A stretch of DNA of 12,124 bases, taken from contig CAMVRW010000043.1 of assembly GCA_947169985.1 (NCBI GenBank), forward strand, positions 1-12,124, in the 5' to 3' direction. Positions within the stretch are counted from its first letter, which is position 1. Every line of letters begins with the position of its first letter. This DNA is from an uncultured Butyrivibrio sp. GTDB taxonomy: Bacteria; Bacillota; Clostridia; Lachnospirales; Lachnospiraceae. The translations under genes were made by a program, and so were the position numbers. Below the pieces are notes generated by a model, which had not been told where the DNA came from, did not search any database, and was given only the letters and a program-made list of their open reading frames with translations. Of the stretch, positions 6,817 to 12,124 are shown piece by piece.

Positions 6817-6890
6817 GTTTCCGTAGCTCAGCAGGATAGAGCGTTCGCCTCCTAAGCGAAAGGTCGTGCGTTCGAATCGCATCGGGAACA
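6817..6890 (+). tRNA. tRNA-Arg (anticodon CCU)
   Basis: This 74-nt cloverleaf has acceptor stem GTTTCCG/CGGGAAC (one T-G wobble), D arm GCTCAGCAGGATAGAGC, anticodon stem TTCGC/GCGAA with loop CTCCTAA (anticodon CCT at 6851-6853), and T arm GTGCG-TTCGAAT-CGCAT's standard core TTCGAAT. The discriminator base is A6890 and CCA is not encoded, so it is added after transcription. It reads AGG codons. It is a single gene with its own promoter and terminator, divergent from the GGDEF operon. I see no duplicated 3' end that would mark an integrated element. Confidence 0.96.
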
Positions 6891-6980: not shown

Positions 6981-7015
6981 GGGCGACAGCCCGCGGAGAA
7001 GGAAGCTTTGCTTCC
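6981..7015 (+). repeat. pair of small GC-rich hairpins after the tRNA terminator
   Basis: GGGC-GACA-GCCC (6981-6992) is followed by GGAAGC-TTT-GCTTCC (7001-7015), separated by CGCGGAGAA. Both are perfect stems directly behind a terminator, in a stretch with no gene of its own. They look like a palindromic intergenic repeat unit, but only one copy is visible here. The rest of 6891-7157 holds the terminator, the inverted repeat at 7062-7115 and the AraC leader. Confidence 0.5.
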
Positions 7016-7061
7016 GAGTTTGAGCATGGCGACAATGATCGTTATTTACGGATTATTCTTC

Positions 7062-7115
7062 GTACACTACTATTGCCGACAAAAGAAAGCATTTTATGTC
7101 GGGAACAGTATGTAC
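7062..7115. repeat. 54-bp imperfect inverted repeat upstream of the AraC/GyrI-like gene
   Basis: GTACACTACTATTGCCGACA (7062-7081) pairs with TGTCGGGAACAGTATGTAC (7097-7115) with one bulged base and two mismatches, around a 15-nt loop. It has no T-run, so it is not a simple terminator. It ends 42 nt before the start codon and 8 nt before a TATACT (7124-7129) that would serve as a -10 box with no recognisable -35. A regulator-binding dyad, an mRNA leader structure or a decayed small repeat element are all possible. Confidence 0.55.
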
Positions 7116-7157
7116 AACACCTCTATACTAAAGTTACAATCAAGTTGGAGGTTACTT

Positions 7158-8006
7158 ATGAACTGGAGCAAGATCATTGAAGACGCCATAAGGTTTATTG
7201 AAGAGAACATCACTGAAGATCTGACGGTAGGCAGGATTGCCAAGGAAGTGAATACATCCGCGTTTTATTTCCAAAAGGGCTTTTCCATGCTGTGCGGACT
7301 AACCGTTGGCGAATATGTTCGAATGAGAAGGCTCTCCCTTGCAGGAGAAGAACTGCTCTCTACAGACATCAAGGTGATCGACCTGGCAATGAAGTACGGC
7401 TATGACTCAGCAGACAGCTTCACCAAGGCGTTTACAAGATTTCATGGAAGTACCCCAACTGATGTAAGGACGAATGGTGCGAATATAAAATCCTTTGCAC
7501 CACTGCATATCAAACTGACATTAGACGGAGGAAAAACAATGGAGTACAGAATTGAAAAGAAACCGGCATTTAAGGTAATGGGCGTATCAAGGATAATCGG
7601 ATATGGAGATGGCTACACAACAATCCCCAAGTTCTGGGATGAAGTCTTTTCTGGCAGTGATAACAAGCTTATGGGGATGTATGGCGTTTGCCTTGATGGT
7701 GAAGTTCCCGGAGATGAGTTCCGCTACATGATCGCAGATGATTATAACGAAGACCTGGCAGCCTCAAAGGGCTATGAGGTAAAAGAAATACCAGAATACA
7801 CCTGGGCTGTGTTCCCTTGCCGAGGCGCTATGCCAAAGGCTCTTCAGGACGTCAACACCCAGGTATTTAATGAGTGGCTCCCTGCCAGCAACTATGAGAT
7901 CGCTGCAGGATTCAACATTGAGTTTTACACCGACGAGACCAAGTACAAGCTTGGAACTCAGGACCCTGACTACTACTCAGAAATCTGGGTTCCTGTTAAG
8001 GCCTGA
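7158..8006 (+). CDS. AraC-family regulator with C-terminal GyrI-like effector-binding domain
   Basis: 282 aa from ATG 7158, which has GGAGG 6 nt upstream. The frame stays open upstream to a TTG at 7008, but that stretch is structured noncoding sequence without a ribosome site. Residues 1-105 form the two helix-turn-helix units of the AraC domain, with VGRIAKEVNTSAFYFQKGFS and GYDSADSFTKAFTRFHGSTP. Residues about 127-282 read as the AraC effector-binding (GyrI-like) domain, with the characteristic opening MEYRIEKKPAFKVMGVSR and a C-terminus YSEIWVPVKA. Such proteins sense small, often cationic or hydrophobic compounds and usually activate efflux or detoxification genes. The nearest candidate target is the convergent permease gene, but the ligand and target are not shown by sequence. 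Confidence 0.93.
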   Translation: MNWSKIIEDAIRFIEENITEDLTVGRIAKEVNTSAFYFQKGFSMLCGLTVGEYVRMRRLSLAGEELLSTDIKVIDLAMKYGYDSADSFTKAFTRFHGSTPTDVRTNGANIKSFAPLHIKLTLDGGKTMEYRIEKKPAFKVMGVSRIIGYGDGYTTIPKFWDEVFSGSDNKLMGMYGVCLDGEVPGDEFRYMIADDYNEDLAASKGYEVKEIPEYTWAVFPCRGAMPKALQDVNTQVFNEWLPASNYEIAAGFNIEFYTDETKYKLGTQDPDYYSEIWVPVKA

Positions 8007-8007
8007 T

Positions 8008-9138
8008 TCAGCGACCTAAAAGTAGTGCAAAACAAACCAGAATAATAAGGAATACTACGTTAACAGCGGTGAATACCAACAGGTATTTGCCGCTGTTTTC
8101 TCTATATTCCTTACTATAGGCCTTATAAGAAATCAGCGATGCCATGGATGCAATAAGTGTTCCCAGTCCTCCAACATTAACTCCAAGAAGAAGGTCTTTG
8201 TAATTGGTGGTAAATCCTGAGAGCATCAATGTAGCAGGAACATTACTGATGACCTGGCTTAAGGCAATTGAAATTGCAAACTCCCTTCCACTTAGTACCC
8301 TTTGAAGAAAAGAGCTTATGGCACCAATATTTCCCATGTTTCCTGTAAAGATAAAGAAACCAATAAAGGTCAGCAGCAGTATATAGTCAGCCCTGAAAAG
8401 GATCTTGAAATCCATTCCGCCAACAATTACAAGCACTATGATTGCAAACACATACCAGGGAAGGATTCTTACAACGGATAAAAGAGCTATCACAAAAAGC
8501 ACGCCATAGATTATGATCTGGCGCTTACTTCCAAAGTTGCTGGTGATAACTGAATCCTTGCTGGTGGAAAGGCTCTTTTGCCTGTCAGGCGTTAAGAGAA
8601 AAAGAGCTGCAACCAAAAGGAGTGCTGAAACAAGGCTGTAAGGAAGAAGTGTCAGGATAAATTCCCCAAGTCCCATACCTGTAAGGCCATAGAGATACAG
8701 GTTCTGAGGATTTCCTATAGGAGTCAGCATGCTTCCAAGATTCGCTGCCACAGTCTGAAGTACTACCGTTGGGATCATCATATCTTCTCTGTTGCAGTCA
8801 TGAAGGATCATAAGTGCAAAGGGAACGAAGGTGATCAGCGCCACATCATTAGTGATCAGCATACTTCCAATAAAGCACATGAAGATCAGTACAGCAGAAA
8901 GCTGCCATCCGTTTTTTACCTTTGATAAAAGAACTCCGGCAATCTTTTCAAATACTGCATTTTCCTTAAGTCCCTGGATTATTACCATCAGTCCCCAAAG
9001 GATTCCAAGAGACCTAAAGTCAATATATCCCAGATACTCTTTTCCGGGATGTACAAAAAAAGCTGAGATTATCGCCAGTACCCAGGCGATGGTCAGAACA
9101 GTATCAGGCTTGTGTATCTTTTTCTTTATATTATTCAT
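8008..9138 (-). CDS. ion transporter-superfamily permease (SLC13/ArsB/CitMHS-like)
   Basis: 376 aa, hydrophobic throughout, with roughly ten membrane segments. The protein has two similar halves, each with the family's hairpin signatures: GSMLITNDVALITFVPF (91-107) and NLGSMLTPIGNPQNL (133-147) in the first, SNVPATLMLSGF and NVGGLGTLIASMASLI in the second. These are hallmarks of the SLC13/ArsB/NhaD-type ion transporter superfamily, which carries dicarboxylates, citrate, sulfate, arsenite or Na+. At 376 aa it is shorter than most family members of 420 aa or more, but both signature pairs are present. The ATG has AGAGGT at 8-nt spacing. It converges on the AraC-type regulator with one base between the stop codons and no visible terminator between them. 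The substrate is unknown. Confidence 0.9.
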   Translation of the reverse strand: MNNIKKKIHKPDTVLTIAWVLAIISAFFVHPGKEYLGYIDFRSLGILWGLMVIIQGLKENAVFEKIAGVLLSKVKNGWQLSAVLIFMCFIGSMLITNDVALITFVPFALMILHDCNREDMMIPTVVLQTVAANLGSMLTPIGNPQNLYLYGLTGMGLGEFILTLLPYSLVSALLLVAALFLLTPDRQKSLSTSKDSVITSNFGSKRQIIIYGVLFVIALLSVVRILPWYVFAIIVLVIVGGMDFKILFRADYILLLTFIGFFIFTGNMGNIGAISSFLQRVLSGREFAISIALSQVISNVPATLMLSGFTTNYKDLLLGVNVGGLGTLIASMASLISYKAYSKEYRENSGKYLLVFTAVNVVFLIILVCFALLLGR

Positions 9139-9198: not shown

Positions 9199-9207
9199 AT
9201 CACCGGG

Positions 9208-9236
9208 TTGACTAATCCAGGCAAACGTGTTACATA
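9208..9236 (+). promoter_or_regulatory. promoter of the MFS/ABC-F leader
   Basis: TTGACT (9208-9213, 5 of 6 consensus), 17-bp spacer and TACATA (9231-9236) with TGT directly before it (extended -10). The predicted start is near 9243. It gives a leader of about 335 nt before the MFS start codon. Confidence 0.5.
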
Positions 9237-9406
9237 TAAATTTAGTAAGTTTCCAAGCACAATTTGGAGGTAGAGAGGGATGTTGCGTAGGTGATATTGA
9301 TTCAATAAGTAAAACACTTGCCCGAAAGGGTTATTGCGTTGCGCTTAGTAGTAAGGACAATGTTTGTTCTTATGTTGTGGATCATGTCATTTATTGCATA
9401 TTCTGA
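9212..9406 (+). pseudogene. possible decayed gene fragment in the leader region
   Basis: A 64-codon open frame runs from after a TGA at 9209-9211 to the TGA at 9404-9406, with a GTG at 9227 but no ribosome site. Its translation includes VGDIDSISKTLARKGYCVAL followed by SSKDNVCSYVVDHVIYCIF, which reads like real protein (alternating helix/strand, similar in feel to the N-terminal domain of ATP-grasp enzymes or a Rossmann fold). It lacks a proper start and a continuation. It competes with the leader interpretation and could equally be chance. Confidence 0.2.
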
Positions 9407-9452
9407 TACCGGGAATAGGTGCTTTTTTTGTGGGATAAAGCCCGTTTTCTAA
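9360..9452 (+). CDS. possible 30-residue leader peptide
   Basis: ATG 9360 to TAA 9450-9452, with a modest AAGG 3 nt before the ATG. The peptide is hydrophobic at the start (MFVLMLWIMSFIAY), then SDTGNRCFFCGIKPVF with a Cys-x2-Cys pair and basic residues. Its last codons run through the first copy of a 19-bp tandem repeat, so a ribosome halted there would cover one of two alternative pairing partners. It overlaps the end of the 9212-9406 frame in another phase. I do not recognise the peptide; evidence that it is translated is limited to position and the weak ribosome site. Confidence 0.3.
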   Translation: MFVLMLWIMSFIAYSDTGNRCFFCGIKPVF

Positions 9453-9471
9453 GATAAAGCCTTTGTTTTCA
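9434..9471 (+). repeat. two-copy tandem direct repeat, period 19
   Basis: GATAAAGCCCGTTTTCTAA (9434-9452) is followed at once by GATAAAGCCTTTGTTTTCAA (9453-9472). The first nine bases are identical and the remainder similar. Each copy contains AAAGC, complementary to GCTTT at 9421-9425. The repeat lies in the leader between the small frame and the terminator. Confidence 0.6.
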
Positions 9472-9505
9472 AGGCAGGCTCAGGGTATAGTAATATGATT
9501 TAGTG

Positions 9506-9536
9506 AATCCGTTTGCGTAACGCAGGCGGATTTTTT
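9506..9536 (+). terminator. intrinsic terminator in the leader upstream of the MFS gene
   Basis: AATCCGTTTGCG (9506-9517) pairs along all 12 positions (two G-T wobbles) with CGCAGGCGGATT (9521-9532) around a TAA loop, followed by a continuing T-run to 9536. It is the strongest plus-strand terminator in the window, but no complete gene precedes it on that strand. It ends 42 nt before the MFS ATG. A second weak promoter (TTGTTT-17-TATAGT, 9463-9491) would start transcription only just before it. Confidence 0.85.
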
Positions 9537-9578
9537 ATTGCCGCGAAATTATTATTTTGACTTGCTTAGGAGGACATA

Positions 9579-10865
9579 ATGGAAACAAATTTATCAAAAG
9601 AAATTTCAAAAGAATTAACGGTCAAGAACCCCTTATGGACAAGGGACTTTACCATAATAACAATTGGCAGCGTAGTTTCAATGCTTGGAAACAGTATGGC
9701 TGGCTTTGCAATGAGTCTTATGGTCCTTGATTTTACCGGATCAACCATGCTCTATGCCATATACCTTATGACCTATACTGTACCACAGCTTCTGGTTCCC
9801 ATTTTTTCAGGAGCTATCCTTGACAGGTTTTCAAGGAAAAAGATGATATACACTTTAGACTTTATGATGGGCGGATTATATTTACTCATGGCAATTCTGC
9901 TTACCAGCGGATGGTTCAGTTTCCCAATATTTGCACTGTTTAGCCTGACAGTTGGATCAGTGAGCAGCATTTATATGGTGGCTTATGACAGCTTTTATCC
10001 ACTGCTGATCTCGGAGGGAAATTACTCAAAAGCCTATTCCATAGCCAGTGTGCTTGAGACCTTGGCAGTTTTCATGGTTCCTGTGGCCACATTCTTTTAC
10101 AACATGTTTGGTATGGGGCCACTTATGATGGCCAATGCCGTATGTTTCCTTGTTGCTGCAACTTTGGAGATGCGCATTGAGGCAGAGGAAAAGTACATTG
10201 AAAAGCAAAAGAAGTCGATAGAAGGTGAAAACCTGGGTCATGTGCAGAGGATACTTGTGGATATCAAAGAGGGCTTTAGATATCTCTTTTCCGAAAAAGG
10301 ACTTCTGGCAATTGCACTGTACTTCCTGTTTAGCAATATCGCTGGGGGAGCATCTAATGTAATATGCCTTCCCTACTTTAAGAGTAATTTTCCAAATGGA
10401 GAGTATCTCTTTATGTGCATATTCGGAATGGCATTTGTGGGAAGAGGTATTGGCGGATGGTTCCATTACAGAAAAAAGCTGCCTACAAAATATAAGTTTT
10501 ACATAGCTCTTGTGGTCTACATAATGCTTGGAATCTGCGAGGGATTATATCTTTATACTCCTGTTGCAGTTGCCATGGTCCTCTCCTTCCTGACTGGAAT
10601 TGGAGGAGTCACAAGCTACACCATAAGGATATCTTCAACTCAGAGCTATGTTCCCGATGAAAAGAAAGGCAGATTTAACGGTGCTTTTCAGGTGCTTAGC
10701 ACAGCCGGAACACTTTTTGCAGAGCTGATGGCTGGTATTCTTACGGTGTATCTCGATGAAAGAGCAGTTCTTTTGCTATTTGAGATGTTGGCAGTTGTGG
10801 CAGCTATTGTGATCATCGGTGGAAACAAGAAATACGTTAAAGCAATTTATAATAGAAATATGTAA
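9579..10865 (+). CDS. MFS drug exporter, Mef-like
   Basis: 428 aa with about 12 membrane segments. AGGAGG lies 5 nt before the ATG. Motif A of the major facilitator superfamily is clear in the TM2-TM3 loop: GAILDRFSRKK (78-88). A hydrophilic central loop around residues 194-225 (EMRIEAEEKYIEKQKKSIEG) divides two six-helix halves, as usual. Length and organisation match the Mef/MFS_3 group of proton-driven exporters. The ABC-F gene follows after 27 nt on the same strand, reproducing the mef-msr operon order in which MFS efflux and ribosome protection act together against macrolides. The sequence is clearly diverged from classical Mef(A), so the substrate is inferred from context. It is probably controlled by the terminator-bearing leader at 9243-9578. 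Confidence 0.9.
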   Translation: METNLSKEISKELTVKNPLWTRDFTIITIGSVVSMLGNSMAGFAMSLMVLDFTGSTMLYAIYLMTYTVPQLLVPIFSGAILDRFSRKKMIYTLDFMMGGLYLLMAILLTSGWFSFPIFALFSLTVGSVSSIYMVAYDSFYPLLISEGNYSKAYSIASVLETLAVFMVPVATFFYNMFGMGPLMMANAVCFLVAATLEMRIEAEEKYIEKQKKSIEGENLGHVQRILVDIKEGFRYLFSEKGLLAIALYFLFSNIAGGASNVICLPYFKSNFPNGEYLFMCIFGMAFVGRGIGGWFHYRKKLPTKYKFYIALVVYIMLGICEGLYLYTPVAVAMVLSFLTGIGGVTSYTIRISSTQSYVPDEKKGRFNGAFQVLSTAGTLFAELMAGILTVYLDERAVLLLFEMLAVVAAIVIIGGNKKYVKAIYNRNM

Positions 10866-10892
10866 TCAGATTCCTTCGAAAGGAGGTGTGAC

Positions 10893-12124
10893 ATGTCTAA
10901 GAAAATTCTTATCAGTGCAGAAAATATAAAACAGATATATGGCGAACAGACAGTTCTGGATTTTGAAAGGTTCTATCTGTATGAGGGAGAAAAGGTTGGA
11001 TTAGTTGGAATGAACGGAGCCGGGAAAACAACTCTCTTGCGGATTTTAGCCGGACAGATAGAGCCCTCGTCCGGAAGCGTTAAGCTTGATTGTATCCCGT
11101 TTTACTTTGAGCAGTTTGGAAGCGGAAACTCATATTTCGATACTGATTATACCGAGGCAGGGAAGATGGGGGTCAGCGACCAGATGTGGCAGGAGAAAGT
11201 CAGCGGAGGTGAGGATACCAGAATAAGACTTGCAGAGCTCTTTTCAAGTCAAAGGGCTGTGGCGTTTTTGGATGAGCCCACATCAAATCTGGATAGCGCC
11301 GGTGTTGAGCTTTTGAAAAAGAGACTTATAGAGATAGAATCTATGGTCCTTATCAGTCATGACAGATCCTTGTTAAATGAAGTATGTGACAGGATCGTAG
11401 AGGTTTCTTTTGGCGAGCTCCATTTTTATAATGGAAATTACGATGATTACCTGGAACAAAAGGAGCAGCAAAGAAAGACAGAATATGCCGAGTACGAAAG
11501 TTACCAGGCTGAAAAACAAAGGTTAACAAATGTCTATCGGCAAAAGAAAGCCAAGGCTAAGTCCATTGAGAAAAAACCAAAGAATATCTCAGCCAGCGAG
11601 GCTAAAGCCATTGCCCTTTGCGGAAACAGAAAGCCGGAGGACAAGGCTCGTAACATGGAAAAGAGTGCTGAGAATGTCCTAAAGCGCATCGAGCACATGG
11701 AGGTTAAGCAAAAGCCAAAGGAGGAACCGGTTGCCAGACCTGATTTCAGATTGACTAATCCGCCGAGGAATCCCATTGTTATAAGAGGTGAGCATCTTAC
11801 CTTTGGTTATGATGACAAGCTTATCTTTGATGATGCTGACTTTATGATACGAAACGGGTCAAAGGTTGCTCTTGTTGGTGAGAACGGAGCAGGAAAGACT
11901 ACACTGATCGAGCTTATCGACGAGGGAGAGTTAGTATATGTGGTTCCGGGAGCCAAGATAGGCTACGCAAGACAGAACATGTCCCAGATAGATATGGAAA
12001 AGACTGTTCTTGAAAATGTAAGGGATGTGAGCATCCAGTCCGAGAGTATAGCACGTATCATACTGGCGAGACTTCTTTTAACTGAAAGAGATATCCGGAA
12101 GAAGGCAAAAGAGCTGTCGGGTGG
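10893..12124 (+). CDS. ABC-F protein, probable antibiotic-resistance (ribosome protection) type; cut by the right edge
   Basis: 410 codons are visible from ATG 10893, which has a near-perfect AAAGGAGGTG ribosome site. There are no membrane segments. First ABC domain: Walker A GMNGAGKTT (39-47), signature VSGGE (103-107), Walker B AVAFLDEPTSNLD (122-134, catalytic E128) and SHDR switch (155-158). A charged, Lys/Glu-rich linker at about 182-285 corresponds to the interdomain linker that reaches toward the peptidyl transferase centre. Second domain: Walker A GENGAGKTT (329-337), with the second signature LSGG just at the window end; its Walker B is outside. Both E/K residues needed in domain 1 are present. 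The first domain lacks a long arm insertion between Walker A and signature, as in the Lsa/Vga/Msr-like resistance group rather than housekeeping EttA. It shares an operon with the MFS exporter. The drug class is not determinable here. Confidence 0.92.
   Translation, partial: MSKKILISAENIKQIYGEQTVLDFERFYLYEGEKVGLVGMNGAGKTTLLRILAGQIEPSSGSVKLDCIPFYFEQFGSGNSYFDTDYTEAGKMGVSDQMWQEKVSGGEDTRIRLAELFSSQRAVAFLDEPTSNLDSAGVELLKKRLIEIESMVLISHDRSLLNEVCDRIVEVSFGELHFYNGNYDDYLEQKEQQRKTEYAEYESYQAEKQRLTNVYRQKKAKAKSIEKKPKNISASEAKAIALCGNRKPEDKARNMEKSAENVLKRIEHMEVKQKPKEEPVARPDFRLTNPPRNPIVIRGEHLTFGYDDKLIFDDADFMIRNGSKVALVGENGAGKTTLIELIDEGELVYVVPGAKIGYARQNMSQIDMEKTVLENVRDVSIQSESIARIILARLLLTERDIRKKAKELSG

Follow-up and report, generated by a model that had tools for sequence, protein, structure and literature searches.

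What controls a pair of candidate drug-resistance genes, an exporter of the major facilitator superfamily (MFS) followed by an ABC-F protein, in an uncultured rumen Butyrivibrio? The question is raised by a contig of 12,124 nucleotides (nt) (CAMVRW010000043.1, C43), analysed here in its entirety and hereafter called the window. It belongs to a genome of 376 contigs that is 67% complete, and its named relatives are mostly Butyrivibrio. The initial annotation had described a promoter, a leader with a strong terminator, and MFS and ABC-F genes 27 nt apart, and all of these were recovered at the same places, with about 336 nt of leader between the promoter and the MFS gene (Table 1). It had passed over a four-codon upstream open reading frame (uORF) with its Shine-Dalgarno (SD) sequence (9266-9294), an antiterminator arm and a run of seven U residues, U7 (9423-9429). 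We propose, with a probability of about 0.75, that a transcription attenuator of the vmlR/cplR type controls the operon of MFS exporter and antibiotic resistance (ARE)-type ABC-F protein through a drug-stalled ribosome on the uORF.

The uORF and its SD sequence lie soon after the expected transcript start, as in attenuators of this type, and in the fold of the window the uORF sits within the 5' arm of a hairpin, P1. The antiterminator arm is itself contained in P1, and its other partner is the 5' half of the intrinsic terminator T2, which makes the two pairings mutually exclusive. The fold of T2 (9500-9536) has an energy of -17.5 kcal/mol, compared with -6.07 +/- 2.4 in 200 shuffled sequences (z -4.76). 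The fold of the whole leader (9243-9539) has a z of -3.90, and none of 200 shuffles was as good. Without drug, the uORF would be translated and the ribosome would leave quickly, P1 would form and hide the antiterminator arm, and T2, perhaps together with a first terminator T1, would halt transcription ahead of the MFS gene. With drug, a ribosome held on the uORF would cover the 5' arm of P1, the freed arm (9334-9344) would pair with 9515-9525 and prevent T2, and exporter and ribosome protector would be produced together. The uORF, hairpin, alternative pairing and terminator can be read in the DNA itself and are conserved across species and genes; we infer the drug stalling, the readthrough and the resistance.

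Table 1 Features of the putative attenuator and operon in the window.
Feature	Position	Strand	Remarks
Promoter	9208..9236	+	TTGACT 9208-9213, 17-nt spacer, TACATA 9231-9236, TG ahead of -10
5' foot of long hairpin, AAGCAC	9255..9260	+	pairs with GTGCTT ahead of the U7 run
SD sequence of uORF, GGAGG	9266..9270	+	read in sequence
uORF ATG TTG CGT AGG TGA (MLRR), candidate drug-sensing mini-ORF	9280..9294	+	counterparts in relatives
5' arm core of P1 (anti-antiterminator hairpin)	9290..9303	+	folds; overlaps uORF end
Antiterminator arm TTGCGTTGCGC	9334..9344	+	11 of 11 positions can pair with 9515-9525
3' arm region of P1	9377..9403	+	folds
3' foot of possible T1 with U7 run, GGTGCTTTTTTT	9418..9429	+	U7 at 9423-9429
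Intrinsic terminator T2	9505..9538	+	from terminator listing; 9515-9525 is the antiterminator partner
MFS exporter gene	9579..10865	+	428 amino acids; strong SD upstream; Pfam MFS_1 92.7 bits
ABC-F gene	10893..12122	+	410 amino acids, cut by contig end; strong SD upstream

We read the sequence ahead of the ABC-F gene at 20 homologous loci (at least 70% ABC-F identity), which come from 20 of 99 genomes, the window's own included. Conservation of the leader, which had been suggested as a check, was borne out: a short ORF with an SD sequence leads 19 of the 20 ABC-F genes in the genus, whether or not an MFS gene intervenes, and T2 is definable in 18. The exception, in genome G013, has a 21-codon ORF and a different terminator upstream of the ABC-F gene; that ORF starts with MSSMRIE and the terminator arms are GGCCGTG and CACGGCC (L032). 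The uORF peptides at the ABC-F loci are MLRR, MLNR, MLIR, MRR, MRNR, MRI and MIIR, and MRISRI in G022. Changes in uORF length amount to 3 nt and preserve the frame (3 nt are absent in L033, L075, L035 and L036). A promoter resembling that of the window, TTGACG-N17-TACAAA/TACAAC, is present in L034, L038, L033, L055 and L031. A second uORF further down the leader (ATG TTT GTT CTT... from 9361 in the window; AGGTGAACATG in relatives) was rejected by eye, since its ATG is ACG in L066 and L071 and the frames differ.

Comparison of the leaders supports the alternative pairing. In the 14 rows of a second leader group, 94.6% of the cells of P1 and T2 are paired, and six pairs of P1 are altered on both sides, a count that none of 500 shuffles reached; the antiterminator is paired in 97.9% of cells. 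Further tests used a set of 31 leaders, with the arms and T2 cores in the pairing, nascent-folding and partner-search tests located by patterns chosen after the sequences had been read. Across the groups, pairing of each arm with its own T2 has a mean of -15.85 kcal/mol, against -12.03 kcal/mol with the partners of other leaders, and none of 20,000 permutations was as low, although the test took 21 of the 31 leaders and kinship among the sequences makes its figure generous. An unsupervised search for the partner of T2 within each leader gave a mean z of -2.5 over the 31 leaders. In the window it returned the arm as the best partner of T2, with one of 200 shuffles as good; two or fewer of 200 shuffles were as good in 10 of the 31 leaders, the weakest being L062 (24 of 200), and in L040 the best partner is located elsewhere than the arm. 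The conditional terminator and the sensing through a leader ORF, both put forward in the initial annotation, are thus supported by sequence comparison. Leaders L037, L032, L050, L073 and L074, in which T2 could not be named or which are of another kind, were left out of the 31; alignment A2 omits L080-L082, L049, L041 and L048, and alignments A3 and A4 omit L040 (a near copy of L039), L084 and L086.

Folding predictions indicate that a ribosome on the uORF could throw the switch. In nascent RNA extending to the apex of T2, the mean predicted probability of the antiterminator over the 31 leaders is 0.14 without a ribosome, 0.84 with a ribosome on the start codon and 0.94 with one on the last sense codon. 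The value lies below 0.5 in 28 of 31 leaders without a ribosome, and above 0.5 in 28 with the ribosome on the start codon and in 30 with it on the last codon. The lower stem, AAGCAC paired with GTGCTT, may form T1 together with the U7 run. This foot is paired in all eight rows of the window-type leaders and is nearly invariant, so it shows little covariation; RNAalifold recovered it on seven relatives, and its pairing probability is 0.99 in nascent window RNA.

Several observations weigh against the proposed attenuator. The antiterminator pairs of the second group are mostly invariant and their covariation is not above shuffles. Among the eight window-type leaders, covariation of either structure likewise does not exceed that of shuffles, in part through misalignment of the window row at the arm; the case therefore depends on the second group and the cross-group pairing. 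The antiterminator is predicted at 0.93 in the window even without a ribosome, and likewise at 0.99 in L049 and 0.88 in L082. A ribosome on the start codon gives 0.5 or less in L039, L040 and L075, and one on the last codon fails to form the antiterminator in L086. When T2 is present in full, the antiterminator prevails in none of the 31 leaders without a ribosome, and with a ribosome on the last codon it wins in 15 and loses in 16 (window 0.04), so that the order of folding, that is kinetics, must carry the switch there. In the model, T1 does not clearly open when a ribosome sits on the uORF (for the window, 0.97 with the ribosome at codon 1). The -10 element of the promoter, TACATA, is poor, and for this reason a simple consensus promoter scan of the window did not list the promoter. 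Finally, the ABC-F gene is incomplete in the window; homologues with a stop codon in view have 485-514 residues.

We compared the leader with known attenuators, as described in extracts of the published reports. In Bacillus subtilis vmlR, a three-codon uORF (MIN) lies in hairpin SL-1, which is the anti-antiterminator, followed by a pause hairpin at the antiterminator apex, an intrinsic terminator and the ARE-ABCF gene (PMC9226507). The window shares the uORF in the anti-antiterminator hairpin, the antiterminator, the terminator and the ARE-ABCF gene. However, VmlR is of the ARE2 kind and stands alone in these extracts (PMC9226507), whereas the window has a four-codon uORF with an MFS gene first, and its leader type precedes several gene families. 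Clostridioides cplR has the uORF MR[I/M] and an ARE-ABCF gene, and retapamulin and lincomycin induce it (PMC10201436); some Butyrivibrio uORFs are similar, such as MRI in L035. The extracts describe a cplR terminator stem that also hides the SD sequence of the main gene (PMC10201436), whereas T2 ends about 30 nt upstream of the SD sequence of the MFS gene, and the ABC-F relative scores 393 bits against the CplR cut-off of 780. Listeria lmo0919 (VgaL) is an ABC-F gene with a lincomycin-responsive transcription attenuator; the protein falls in the same clade of Msr, Vga and Butyrivibrio ABC-Fs in our tree, but no MFS gene is described in the extracts (PMC5418344, PMC6310831). As far as its elements can be read, the layout is of the vmlR/cplR type rather than the mef(A)-msr(D) type, and it differs from vmlR and cplR in the shared leader, the four-codon ORFs and the exporter as part of the output. 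Since the layout matches vmlR/cplR, lincosamides, pleuromutilins and streptogramin A seem likelier inducers than macrolides, and by this analogy the inducer is probably one of the three.

The gene order and the terminator-bearing leader also resemble mef(A)-msr(D), where an MFS gene precedes an ABC-F gene, a leader peptide acts in transcription attenuation and one promoter lies about 350 bp upstream (PMC10314930). A macrolide-specific unit of this type, in which stalling at a nascent-chain motif induces a pair of genes that confers macrolide resistance, would also fit the +x+ uORFs of the wider family (MRNR in L031, L049 and L041, and MRMR, MRIR and MKIR), and MsrE is the second-best Protein Data Bank (PDB) match of the ABC-F relative L031. 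We regard it as unlikely, as the +x+ motif is absent from both the MLRR of the window and MIIR, the commonest form. The described leader peptides are MTASMRLR and, before msrD, MYLIFM, the latter part of a second attenuator (PMC10314930); the window has no second leader before its ABC-F gene because the 27-nt gap leaves no room for one.

The proteins do not bear out the close kinship to mef(A)-msr(D) that had been considered. The MFS protein reaches 37.5 bits for Mef(A), where the cut-off is 675, and 139.6 bits on TIGR00900 (cut-off 319.6), is 24.5% identical to Mef(H), and has no PDB match at E 0.01; judged by these scores it is distantly related to macrolide exporters. For Msr, where the cut-off is 680, the ABC-F fragment of the window reaches 313.1 bits and the full-length L031, 87% identical to it, 439.1 bits. 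The Vga, Msr and CplR cut-offs are reached by none of five full-length relatives. All five pass NF000355 (437-464 bits, cut-off 380), with L031 at 459.6 bits, while the window scores 337.1 bits with only 410 residues available. In the PDB, L031 matches VgaA best (315 bits), followed by MsrE (302), VgaL (265), VmlR2 (234), VmlR (209) and YbiT (198), and a 25-row tree places the family of the window ABC-F with Msr and Vga (support 99/98), apart from EttA and YbiT. These comparisons support an ARE-type ABC-F protein, and the grouping with EttA/Uup that had been named as counter-evidence was not seen. Its linker stretch KKPKNISASEAK resembles KKPKNLSSSEGK of VgaA, which also argues against a macrolide-specific unit; from this linker and the short uORF, the protein would protect against lincosamides, pleuromutilins and streptogramin A.

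The last codon of many of the uORFs is Arg, as would be expected if the leader sensed not a drug but general translation slowing, or charged arginine tRNA at this frequent last codon (MxxR). However, the Arg codon AGA overlaps conserved pairs of P1 and alternates with TGA in three-codon uORFs, so RNA pairing explains part of the Arg frequency, and the downstream genes are mainly ABC-Fs rather than arginine genes; we consider this explanation very unlikely. It is less probable still that the terminator just insulates a constitutively and weakly expressed operon from upstream transcription. Six relatives (L034, L038, L033, L055, L079 and L088) do have a CitMHS gene that ends immediately ahead of the leader in the same orientation, but that of the window points away. 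In addition, the operon has a promoter of its own ahead of the terminator, and species and genes share the uORF, P1 and the alternative pairing.

Which genes does this leader type precede elsewhere? MFS and ABC-F genes are joined in G000, G004, G010, G050, G055 and G005 and at the named locus L055, while G011 and G029 keep leader and ABC-F with just remnants of the MFS gene between; in G009 and G031 the contig stops within the MFS gene or shortly beyond it, and the remaining ABC-F loci have no MFS gene between leader and ABC-F. Eight MFS homologues are located away from window-type ABC-Fs, and five of these have a short-ORF leader of their own (MTRI in L080, MTKF in L081, MSNR in L082, MSI in L084 and MSSVVFA in L086). 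An MFS copy in G013 keeps promoter and terminator without ORF and hairpin, and one in G029 retains neither pair. In G018 the MFS gene is third, after a leader matched by the covariance model of the second group (R1, below), an ABC-F of a second clade and a gene for a kinase-like ATP-binding protein, all in a tight row (L085:1-9001). Judged by these arrangements, the leader is the constant piece and the MFS gene comes and goes.

We searched with two covariance models, R1 for the second leader group and R2 for the window-type leaders, built without the window. R2 finds the window leader (71.5 bits) and has matches in 10 of the 99 genomes; R1 does not find the window leader. R1 has 50 matches in 40 of the 99 genomes, all within the genus, to which 61 of the 99 belong. 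ABC-F genes of three clades follow 42 of these 50 leaders. Ten matches are ABC-F loci of the window clade. Among the other 40, 22 precede the second ABC-F clade (genes split or deleted in L142 and L149) and 10 precede Lsa-type ABC-Fs, one of which, L184, scores 631 bits against the Lsa cut-off of 750 and 436 against the resistance ABC-F cut-off of 380. The last eight precede DNA-deoxyinosine glycosylase (two), GNAT-type acetyltransferases (two), an ABC-2 permease, an ABC exporter (whose leader no longer has the ORF), a protein that belongs to no family and, in the remaining case, no clear gene. An ORF of 3-4 codons stands at the same place behind an SD-like motif in 38 of these 40 leaders, most often MIIR (9), MFIR (7) or MYRR (6). 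The second clade (L172:1397-2926 (-) and 21 further loci) forms a long branch of its own; the two members scanned reach 286-295 bits against the cut-off of 380, and it is possibly an undescribed resistance clade. In L149, L176 and L212 the gene after the second-clade ABC-F encodes a GNAT acetyltransferase; in L143 and L213 such a gene stands directly behind the leader, with no ABC-F.

A search of the order with R1 covered 392 genomes and gave matches in 30, from 10 of 173 genera. Of the 15 matches in other genera we read 14. An ABC-F gene follows in 13 of them, Lsa-type in seven and of the second clade in six, three of which are nearly identical to one another; the fourteenth lies ahead of a DJ-1/PfpI protein. 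Rfam 15 at its gathering score returned only a tRNA in the window, and at E up to 1 over four loci, the window leader included, it returned no family and one chance match elsewhere; no paper on these leaders was found among the open-licence papers searched. It seems slightly more likely than not that one RNA attenuator family outside Rfam acts as a plug-in ribosome-drug sensor of Lachnospirales, ahead of three ABC-F clades (Vga/Msr-like, Lsa-type and the unnamed sub-cut-off clade), of MFS genes alone or with ABC-F, and of acetyltransferases. Such a family would wire a dispersed resistance regulon without a regulatory protein and mark undescribed resistance factors.

If this is true, commensal rumen and gut bacteria share a drug-sensing RNA, which can serve as a search tag, and any gene behind the leader is a candidate inducible resistance factor. 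The tag has already led to the sub-cut-off ABC-F clade, at 22 loci among the 99 genomes searched and at 6 of the 14 that were checked in other genera, and to an MFS exporter with links to ABC-Fs of two clades. The natural variation of the 3-4-codon uORFs would also provide material for asking which minimal peptides allow stalling with which drugs, as the cplR authors ask in the extracts of their report (PMC10201436).

The ABC-F protein has no relative among the viral contigs searched, and no DNA-level copy of 9200-12124 was found on plasmids. Protein matches on plasmids are all below 60% identity. One of these, on an Escherichia coli IncI plasmid (NZ_AP024115.1, L123), is 41.5% identical to the ABC-F protein of the window and joins the Butyrivibrio clade in the tree; it neighbours aminoglycoside and bleomycin resistance genes, IS6100 and sul1.

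Upstream of the operon, the gene for the CitMHS-type transporter lies at 8008-9138 (-), oriented away from it. Its opposite orientation in the six relatives suggests that the lineage of the window underwent a local inversion. A gene for an AraC-type regulator with a GyrI-like small-molecule-binding domain (7008-8006, +) lies beside the operon, and there is a tRNA gene at 6817-6890 (+).

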